From: Catellatospora vulcania
Lineage (GTDB): Bacteria; Actinomycetota; Actinomycetes; Mycobacteriales; Micromonosporaceae
Assembly (NCBI RefSeq): GCF_009720385.1
Contig: NZ_WARX01000007.1
Span: 1 to 64,000 of the forward strand
Reading direction: 5' to 3'
Length of the DNA stretch: 64,000 bases
Part shown: positions 40,692 through 42,202 of the stretch, in pieces
Layout: each line of letters starts with the position of its first letter
Numbering within the stretch: position 1 is the first letter of the stretch
Made by a program: the position numbers and the translations under genes
Notes under the pieces: generated by a model
The model's input: only the letters and a program-made list of their open reading frames with translations
Database searches by the model: none
What the model was told of the DNA's origin: nothing

Positions 40692-41939
40692 TCATGCCAC
40701 CGGCGCGGGCGCGAGTTCCGGCGAGCGGGTCGCGACCGCGCCGCCGATCAGGGCCAGGGCCTGCGCGTACGGCATCGGCGGCAGTTGCCGGCCGTCGCGC
40801 AGGCGCAGCGAGACCTCGCCCGAGTCGGCTTCGCGGGAGCCGATGACGGCCAGATAGGGCACCCGGCGTTGGGACGCCTCACGGATGCGCAGGCCTAGCG
40901 ACCCGTCCAGGCTCAGCGACGACCGCAGACCGGCGCGCAGCGCCTGCTCGGCGAACAGCCGTGCGGCCGCGTCCTGCGCCTCGCCGACCGGGGCCACGGC
41001 CAGCTGCACAGGGGCGTACCAGGCCGGGAATGCGCCCTGGTGCACCTCCAGCAGGTGCGCCATCAGCCGCTCCATGCTGCCGACGATGCTGCGGTGCACC
41101 ATCACCGGCCGGGCCGGGCTGCCGTCGCGGTCGGTGTACGACAGGTCGAAGCGCTCCGGCTGCGCGAAGTCCACCTGCACGGTGGCCAGGGTGGACTCCC
41201 GCCCGGCGAGGTCGCGCACCTGAATATCGATCTTCGGCCCGTAGAACGCGGCCTCGCCCGGGACCTCCTCGAACGGCACCCCGGCCTGCACCAGGGCGTC
41301 GCGCAGCAGCGCTTCGGCCCGCGCCCAGTCGGCGTCCGCGCCCAGGTAGCCCGCTCCCGGCCCGCGCAGCGACAGCCGGTAGCCGTCGGCGGCGAAACCG
41401 AGCGCCGGATGGATCCGGGCGCACATGGCCAGGACCAGCGCGACCTCCGCGCCGACCTGGTCGAGTGAGCAGAACACGTGCGCGTCGTTGAGCGAGATCG
41501 CCCGCACCCGGCTCAGCCCGCCGACCACGCCGGAGCGCTCGGCGCGGTACATGCCGCCCAGCTCGGCGATGCGCACCGGCAGCTCGCGGTAGGAGCGGCC
41601 GCGGGAGCGGAACACCATCGCGTGGTGCGGGCACAGGCTCGGGCGCAGCATCAGCGCCTCAGGGTCGTCGGCGGCCGCGTCGGGGTCCTCGGACATCGCC
41701 GGGAACATGTCGTCGGCGAACTTGGCCAGGTGTCCCGACTTTTCGAACATCTGGCGTTTGGCCATCGGCGGGGAGTAGACGTGCTGGTATCCGGCGAGCC
41801 GTTCCTCCTCGCGCACGTGCTCCTCGATCGCGTGGCGGGCGGCGGCGCCGGCGGGCAGCCACAGCGGCAGCCCCGCGCCGATCATCGGGTCGGAGTGGTA
41901 GATCTCGAGGTCGCGGCCGAGGCGGCGGTGGTCCTTCAC
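40692..41939 (-). CDS. thrS: Short threonyl-tRNA synthetase lacking TGS and editing domains
   Basis: 415 aa: the class II catalytic core and C-terminal anticodon-binding domain only; full-length bacterial ThrRS has about 640-690 aa with N1 (TGS) and N2 (editing) domains. The zinc ligands are intact: Cys in LRPSLCPHH, His in ISLNDAHVFC, His in VMVHRSIVGSMER. The anticodon domain spans about 300-400 (WYAPVQLAVAPVG). GTG 41939 has AGGAG six bases upstream. It is probably an accessory or stress-induced paralogue of a full-length ThrRS encoded elsewhere (inference). Its 170-base leader carries a Thr-rich peptide and switchable hairpins. Confidence 0.92.
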   Translation of the reverse strand: MKDHRRLGRDLEIYHSDPMIGAGLPLWLPAGAAARHAIEEHVREEERLAGYQHVYSPPMAKRQMFEKSGHLAKFADDMFPAMSEDPDAAADDPEALMLRPSLCPHHAMVFRSRGRSYRELPVRIAELGGMYRAERSGVVGGLSRVRAISLNDAHVFCSLDQVGAEVALVLAMCARIHPALGFAADGYRLSLRGPGAGYLGADADWARAEALLRDALVQAGVPFEEVPGEAAFYGPKIDIQVRDLAGRESTLATVQVDFAQPERFDLSYTDRDGSPARPVMVHRSIVGSMERLMAHLLEVHQGAFPAWYAPVQLAVAPVGEAQDAAARLFAEQALRAGLRSSLSLDGSLGLRIREASQRRVPYLAVIGSREADSGEVSLRLRDGRQLPPMPYAQALALIGGAVATRSPELAPAPVA

Positions 41940-41940
41940 G

Positions 41941-41976
41941 GTGTGCTCCTGGGGAGTTCAACGGCCCGGAGCACAC
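41941..41976 (-). promoter_or_regulatory. Hairpin sequestering the thrS Shine-Dalgarno
   Basis: On the mRNA strand GTGTGCTCC (41976-41968) pairs perfectly with GGAGCACAC (41949-41941), burying four bases of the AGGAG (41950-41946) that precedes the GTG start. The left arm plus one base (41977-41968) can instead pair with the loop and 3' side of the preceding GC hairpin. Confidence 0.7.
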
Positions 41977-41994
41977 GTGGGGGCGGATACGCGC

Positions 41995-42022
41995 CGGCCC
42001 CGGGGCGTGTGCCCCGGGGCCG
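41995..42022 (-). promoter_or_regulatory. Attenuator-like GC hairpin in the thrS leader
   Basis: Perfect 12-bp stem, 42022-42011 with 42006-41995, and a 4-nt loop (ACAC in the mRNA). It lies 24 bases after the stop of the Thr-rich leader peptide. No U-tract follows, so termination would have to be of the U-less actinobacterial kind, or it acts only on translation. Confidence 0.65.
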
Positions 42023-42046
42023 ACGGTCGACTGAAAGATCAGCAGG

Positions 42047-42106
42047 TCAACGCGTACAAGCGCCGGGACGTCCCGGCGTCGTCGTGCTGACCGCGTGCTG
42101 ATGCAT
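42047..42106 (-). CDS. Putative Thr-rich leader peptide of thrS (19 aa)
   Basis: ATG 42106 opens the ORF MHQHAVSTTTPGRPGACTR, ending at TGA 42049-42047, too short for ordinary gene calling. Residues 8-10 are three consecutive ACG (Thr) codons and residue 18 is a fourth. No Shine-Dalgarno is visible; a TATCGT -10 box ends seven bases before the ATG, so the mRNA would start at or near the A of the ATG (leaderless). The position, between promoter and hairpins of a threonyl-tRNA synthetase, is what attenuation by tRNA-Thr charging requires. An 18-bp perfect palindrome (42061-42078) overlaps the end of the Thr codons. Confidence 0.6.
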   Translation of the reverse strand: MHQHAVSTTTPGRPGACTR

Positions 42107-42113
42107 ACCGAGC

Positions 42114-42144
42114 ACGATAACGTGCCCGCCGCACCCCTGGGCAA
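42114..42144 (-). promoter_or_regulatory. Putative promoter of the thrS leader
   Basis: On the minus strand TTGCCC (42144-42139), 19-nt spacer and TATCGT (42119-42114, fits TANNNT). The predicted start is at 42107 or 42106, the A of the leader-peptide ATG. The -35 and spacer are suboptimal. Confidence 0.4.
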
Positions 42145-42202
42145 GCGATATCCGTCACCGGGGTACCTTCGGATCGAGGAGTCGATCACCCGGGGGTGAG
42201 CG

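Follow-up and report, generated by a model that had tools for sequence, protein, structure and literature searches.

A threonine-codon leader, thrL, as the probable attenuator of an auxiliary threonyl-tRNA synthetase gene in Actinomycetota

A short reading frame before a short synthetase

What a reading frame of only 19 codons, crowded with those for threonine, is doing upstream of a threonyl-tRNA synthetase (ThrRS) gene was the question raised by one locus of Catellatospora vulcania, studied here within a window of 64,000 nucleotides (contig NZ_WARX01000007.1, positions 1 to 64,000). The first-pass annotation had pointed out a 19-aa Thr-rich ORF ahead of thrS, with three consecutive ACG codons and a fourth near its end, and a direct reading of the minus strand bears this out: thrL, MHQHAVSTTTPGRPGACTR and its stop, occupies 42047..42106, opening with an ATG at 42106 and closing with a TGA that ends at 42047, with the presumed regulatory codons ACG ACG ACG at 42077..42085 and the fourth ACG two codons ahead of the TGA. 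That annotation took the ORF to be a Thr leader controlling thrS by attenuation, a reading that the comparative evidence favours, and to its description can now be added a terminator, alternative pairings and a WblC-type promoter box. Our answer, drawn from sequence comparison, is that thrL is very probably a threonine-specific, ribosome-mediated transcription attenuator for an auxiliary ThrRS, acting on a leaderless transcript. Folding of 41900-42106 is much more favourable than that of its shuffled versions (z -6.38, with 0/200 shuffles as good). A T-box or other Rfam element was considered for the window and set aside, as no Rfam family reached its gathering score there.

The thrS ORF lies at 40692..41939 on the minus strand, begins with GTG behind an AGGAG at 41950-41946, and encodes a product of 415 aa that matches TIGR00418 (thrS) and has tRNA-synt_2b and HGTP_anticodon as its only Pfam domains, i.e., a short, auxiliary ThrRS without the TGS and editing domains. 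The domain scan covered the window protein; elsewhere, ThrS was called short from a match of at least 50% identity together with a leader lying too close upstream for the N-terminal domains to fit. A further ThrRS match in the genome from which the window comes is long and shows 38% identity. Since the core of the window protein is well conserved and can be aligned along its length to solved structures of ThrRS, the short ThrRS is expected to be a working enzyme.

Borrelidin and obafluorin act against ThrRS (PMC11252418), and resistance to a ThrRS inhibitor through the Gly463 substitution described there was considered for the window enzyme; it found no support, as the enzyme keeps FYGPK. In a motif search, 158 matches read AFYGPKI or AFYGPKL and a single one, from genome G367's long ThrRS, read AYYAPKI, these being counts over all loci fetched by then, with repeats per genome included and only sequences fitting the pattern considered, so that among the pattern-matched enzymes G367 alone has AYYAPK where the others have AFYGPK.

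Conservation and spread of the leader

Within the genus, a short ThrS was present in 10 of 11 genomes, and the Thr run was present in all ten upstream regions; loss of the run from close relatives that retain a short thrS, which the first-pass annotation had named as evidence that would count against its reading, was looked for, and the run was there throughout. In the family, 95 of 150 genomes had a short ThrS (matches of at least 50% identity), and the upstream DNA was read for 90 of these, the remaining five (G084, G095, G098, G112 and G118) being assessed by covariance model only. All 90 regions carried the leader, with TTTP in 87 and TTP in three. Its 82 distinct peptides have the Thr run and the following Pro as their constant part, and the remainder drifts; the leaders start with ATG (84) or GTG (6), the third codon of the run is ACG in every one, and a TANNNT lies 6-9 nt ahead of the start in 89.

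The covariance model, R1, was built from 53 of the 90 family sequences (alignment A1, from which L015, L043, L085, L088, any sequence longer than 190 nt and near-copies were left out), and those 53 match it by construction. R1 matched 97 of the 150 family genomes, these being all 95 with a short ThrS plus G011 and G136. The G011 locus (L305, G011:C1) has a thrL leader ahead of an apparently frame-shifted short thrS, and the G136 locus (L306, G136:C20) has a thrL leader with no thrS within the 1.9 kb read after it; both are possibly recent losses or sequencing errors.

Across the class, a search of 296 genomes, run like that of the phylum with stricter filters under which weak matches can be lost, gave 88 R1 matches at 1e-3, 52 of them below 1e-9. 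All 52 strong matches have a TTTP leader, and 50 precede a short ThrS, the other two being in G360, where the contig ends, and in G367, where a long ThrRS follows; matches between 1e-7 and 1e-3 were mostly noise or other leaders. Seen from the enzyme, these 296 genomes contain 51 short ThrS, every genome with one having two ThrRS matches in all, and 50 of the 51 have the leader, the sole exception (G281) being cut by a contig end. Shortness of the kind seen in thrL is typical of chance ORFs, and a functionless frame of 19 codons would be one account of it, but a leader found in 90 of 90 family regions, in 50 of 51 cases in the class and again in the covariance-model matches refutes that account, to which we attach practically no probability.

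Beyond the class, a phylum sample of 296 genomes yielded 10 that match R1 at 1e-6 or better, five of them from other classes. Four of these five have Thr leaders ahead of a short ThrS in which little besides the Thr run is left (e.g., MIKRLSPQTTTGSHPSAVRR and MAGLRSTTTTTGLPPAVCRVR), and the fifth (G510) has a Val leader ahead of an alternative ValRS. A search by name, among the best 80 of 583 matches, gave 20 actinobacterial short ThrS, 19 of them with the leader; its bearers among those 80 include Plantactinospora mayteni, Micromonospora andamanensis, Streptomyces griseus and Kitasatospora, and also Amycolatopsis, Nocardia aurea, Rhodococcus and Antribacter soli. At L190 (Streptomyces sp. ms191, about 2398-2436) the leader was not found; the terminator and the short thrS are kept, other DNA stands at the leader's place, and the case is either a true leader loss or a misassembly. 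A tree built from 89 ThrRS cores unites 26 leader-bearing short enzymes and that of L190 in one clade with a support of 100/100.

The long ThrRS of G367 groups in the same tree with the long ThrRS of the window genome, and the leader has therefore become joined to a second ThrRS lineage. At this locus (L185, G367:C55), the leader is MARVFWSTTTPGISRRLSLAR, and the long ThrRS behind it is the only ThrRS match in its genome. At the G510 locus (L274:1521-1655), a leaderless-looking leader, MQRHQHVVVPGLREGLVP, with a Val run, is followed by a GC-rich hairpin and then by the alternative ValRS, whose best match is alt_ValS NF000540, below the cut-off and from a partial protein; it looks like the same switch with a changed codon. 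The second tier of R1 matches is made up of leaderless-looking, aromatic-rich leaders (MQRNFWRFYGYRP.., MRTAWSFWYGDGP.., MSCSAYYWFTDG..) at L148, L154, L155, L159, L162, L163, L164, L167, L169-L171, L174-L177, L145 and L152. A DAHP synthase follows L155, and the genes after L145, L148 and L164 begin alike by eye.

Hairpins, ribosome geometry and a predicted alternative pairing

Two hairpins recur behind the start of the leader. In hairpin 1 (segments 1:2; 42061..42078 in the window, CGCCGGG / CCCGGCG), the end of the Thr run plus CCGGG pairs with CCCGGCG, so that the hairpin overlaps the third Thr codon. The second, terminator-like hairpin (segments 3:4) lies at 41992..42025, where it has 15 pairs and -37.0 kcal/mol, and it recurs as GGCCCCGGGG/CCCCGGGGCC with a median of -28.6 kcal/mol. 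These anatomical counts refer to the 131 distinct sequences among 140, with the few rows that the terminator finder misplaced (e.g., L043, L088) kept in. Covariation supports the terminator: its helix has two-sided changes in 9 of 10 aligned pairs (53 sequences). For hairpin 1 and the terminator taken together, 92.8% of cells pair, two-sided changes occur in 10 of 16 pairs, and the covariation score was reached by 0/500 shuffles; the covariation term of RNAalifold is small (-0.87 of -24.03 kcal/mol). Hairpin 1 itself hardly covaries because it is nearly invariant.

Between these two lies the predicted antiterminator (segments 2:3; 42011..42069), formed by the 3' arm of hairpin 1 and the 5' arm of the terminator. 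Minimum free energy folds join segments 2 and 3 in 128 of the 131 distinct sequences, with a mean z of -1.65 and 99 of 131 below -1, and the longest 2:3 complementarity is mildly above shuffles (at least 5 pairs in 65 of 131 vs 37% of shuffles). Covariation between segments 2 and 3, looked for in 122 of the 131 sequences, was not found by a test whose pattern chose the wrong CCGG in several rows, those of the window's genus among them. In the window the energies are -15.1 kcal/mol for hairpin 1, -27.2 for the antiterminator and the -37.0 already given for the terminator; the terminator is thus more stable than its competitor, and the switch must therefore be kinetic.

The spacing of these parts could be set against ribosome footprint sizes, which we used for the geometry of the leader. 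Segment 2 begins 17-21 nt past the first base of the Thr run and would thus lie just outside a ribosome stalled on the run, and the leader stop begins 30-36 nt past the same base in 114 of 131, so that a ribosome at the stop would reach segment 2. With such footprints, the spacing of thrL is as a classical attenuator needs it. Altering codons of the ilvB leader of S. coelicolor was without effect, as related in PMC1262725, so that a leader in actinobacteria does not have to work in the way of a classical attenuator.

As to codon choice within the run, ACG stands at its three codons in 117, 128 and 131 of the 131 sequences; in the 33 CDS-like ORFs of the window ACG makes up 32% of the Thr codons, and ACC outnumbers it two to one. 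Because hairpin 1 takes in the third codon alone, and ACG is chosen at the first two as well, it is suggested that the tRNA sensed by thrL is the one that reads ACG. The loci examined include tRNA-Thr genes with anticodons CGT, TGT and GGT, the anticodons having been read around the best 30 of 60 tRNA matches.

The sequence of events that we infer for this organism, from the start site to stalling, termination, the 2:3 switch and the tRNA sensed, would run as follows. The thrL message would start at or next to the ATG, and because of this the ribosome would begin at its 5' end. With charged Thr-tRNA plentiful, the ribosome would reach the stop, where it would cover segment 2 or let hairpin 1 reform; the GC-rich hairpin 3:4 would then form and transcription would end ahead of thrS. 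When charged Thr-tRNA is short, and probably the ACG-reading tRNA-Thr CGU above all, the ribosome would stall on the ACG run and cover the 5' arm of hairpin 1, and the freed segment 2 (CCCGGCG) would pair with segment 3 (CCGGGG), so that no terminator forms and thrS is transcribed.

Other modes of control have also to be weighed. No clean U-tract follows the terminator hairpin: among the 115 of 131 usable sequences, counting from the last G-run, the fraction of T reaches 0.50 at position 2 and 0.67 at position 3 and is patchy beyond them, compared with 0.23 in the spacer, and the window terminator is followed by CGTATCCG. Control might accordingly fall on translation, with the leader ribosome or a hairpin, GTGTGCTCC/GGAGCACAC (41941..41976), gating the thrS ribosome-binding site in place of transcription; the weak U-tract would suit this, as would the hairpin itself, whose 9 bp in the window would cover the AGGAG. 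By eye, that hairpin could be made out in some loci of the genus and in L075, whereas the terminator is general and covarying, and we consider translational gating unlikely as the main device; as a second, translational layer the hairpin is possible. An imperfect U-tract would also be in keeping with Rho-dependent polarity, in which translation of the leader hides an entry site for Rho and the antiterminator goes unused, and Rho has been considered for mycobacterial cys leaders, where its prediction was called rather weak (PMC1262725). Against this stand the median stability of the hairpin and the two-sided changes that it shows after the leader, and also the direction of the response, since stalling on the Thr run would leave more RNA open to Rho and lower expression, the opposite of what is needed; a Rho mechanism thus seems to us highly improbable. 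Transcription termination is preferred over both.

Promoter, precedents and meaning

The first-pass annotation had placed a TANNNT -10 box seven bases ahead of the ATG, and TATCGT at 42114..42119 (42119-42114 as read on the minus strand), with a gap of 7 nt, is indeed there, preceded by a -35-like TTGCCC at 42139..42144 with a 19-nt spacer. Of 139 promoters from the family and the class, 136 have 6 or 7 nt between the -10 and the start. When promoters were aligned on the -10, a further element came into view: GATATC (42147..42152), which begins 33 nt ahead of the -10 and is one mismatch from the WblC/WhiB7 box GAAAWY, and which has GAAATC in its place in two loci of the same genus (L004 and L008). 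An exact GAAAWY stands at -33 in 39 of 138 distinct promoters vs 0.08 in shuffles, and occurs once away from that position; with one mismatch allowed, as in the window, the count is 89 of 138 vs 1.8 in shuffles. These tests covered family and class promoters (139 of 140, 138 of them distinct); an earlier version that required a TTG -35 had missed most boxes (6 of 89 in the family, 0 of 50 in the class), which the -10 alignment then found.

A GAAAWY 3 nt upstream of the -35 is the WblC box, and the same source, in its accessible text, lists thrS2 among the WblC-activated genes of S. coelicolor (PMC7157823). Sigma-E binding has been recorded at the threonyl tRNA synthetase SCO3778 in ethanol-stressed cells (PMC10771440). 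In our reading, thrS2 is probably SCO3778 and probably belongs to the leader-bearing clade. The thrL-thrS promoter is probably WblC/WhiB7-activated, a judgement that for the window species is carried over from its relatives.

These observations also open another way of reading the leader, in which any slow ribosome on the uORF would open the terminator, as with the wblC/whiB7 uORF, and the Thr codons would be incidental. The WblC-type box in the same promoters speaks for such a translation-stress leader, as do, in S. coelicolor, the WblC activation of thrS2 and the uORF-mediated attenuation of wblC itself (PMC7157823). It does not sit well with the Thr run being the one constant part of the peptide in the family, in the class and in those four genomes from other classes, nor with the Val-run leader before a ValRS and the aromatic-rich leaders, one of them before a DAHP synthase, that are among the weaker R1 matches and point to cognate sensing; we consider it unlikely. 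Threonine-specific attenuation remains our preferred reading, and thrS is probably doubly gated, because the WblC/WhiB7-type box stands in the promoters beside the Thr leader; the full signal would then be translation stress plus Thr-tRNA shortage. The widest form of the proposal is a two-key switch found throughout the phylum, in which a WblC/WhiB7-activated, leaderless Thr attenuator gates an editing-less auxiliary ThrRS and behaves as a movable module, as at the long, housekeeping-type ThrRS of G367 and the Val-codon ValRS of G510; belief and doubt in this are, for us, evenly balanced.

Several known systems resemble thrL. The E. coli thrABC leader (Rfam Thr_leader) combines a leader peptide containing Thr codons with a terminator behind it, but serves a threonine biosynthesis operon and is Shine-Dalgarno-led and proteobacterial; thrL has the Thr codons and terminator in common with it, and the window is without an Rfam match at the gathering score. 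The polycysteine attenuators of mycobacteria are reportedly leaderless short ORFs with cognate codons, differing from thrL in that the amino acid is cysteine and the downstream gene is said not to be a tRNA synthetase. A study of S. coelicolor trpRS1 is likewise said to have placed an attenuator before a trpS gene. Streptomyces trpS attenuators, e.g., that of trpS2 in S. avermitilis (PMC1262725) and trpL2 (PMC8079986), resemble thrL in that an attenuator with cognate codons precedes a second gene for an aminoacyl-tRNA synthetase, but concern tryptophan and an unrelated enzyme class.

The closest relative supplies the described actinobacterial thrS case that the first-pass annotation did not know of: S. 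lividans TK24 has a thrL (SLIV_19412) before thrS (SLIV_19410), the 18-aa MKRVRPFLETTPGFVPAR, leaderless by RNA-seq (PMC8079986). In the accessible text it is credited with two Thr codons and one hairpin, its termination being called unclear (PMC8079986). Compared by sequence pattern, it is like the leaders here in its TTPG...VPAR, the hairpin after it and the thrS downstream, and it differs in having two Thr codons against three and in being known from one strain; its thrL section, as far as accessible, contains no alternative structure, distribution or promoter box (PMC8079986). The accessible part of PMC1262725 covers actinobacterial trpS and leuS attenuators, the words thrS and threonyl being absent from it, and no mention of a thrS leader was found in the accessible parts of PMC2965389 and PMC13236596. 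The literature searched, which reached few of the subscription journals, yielded no other description of a thrS leader. The spread of thrL, its switch, its association with the short ThrRS and the WblC-type box common to the promoters were not found in print and seem new.

What had been one entry in the reannotation of S. lividans thus becomes a defined family of regulators across Actinomycetota that can be aligned and whose switch can be put to the test; in it the sensing of threonine tRNA is linked to the WblC/WhiB7 antibiotic-stress regulon and a spare ThrRS. Because borrelidin and obafluorin both have ThrRS as their target (PMC11252418), the leader could be a natural reporter of ThrRS inhibition in actinomycetes. 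If the two-key proposal is true, the spare ThrRS would be made only when translation stress coincides with a shortage of charged Thr-tRNA.
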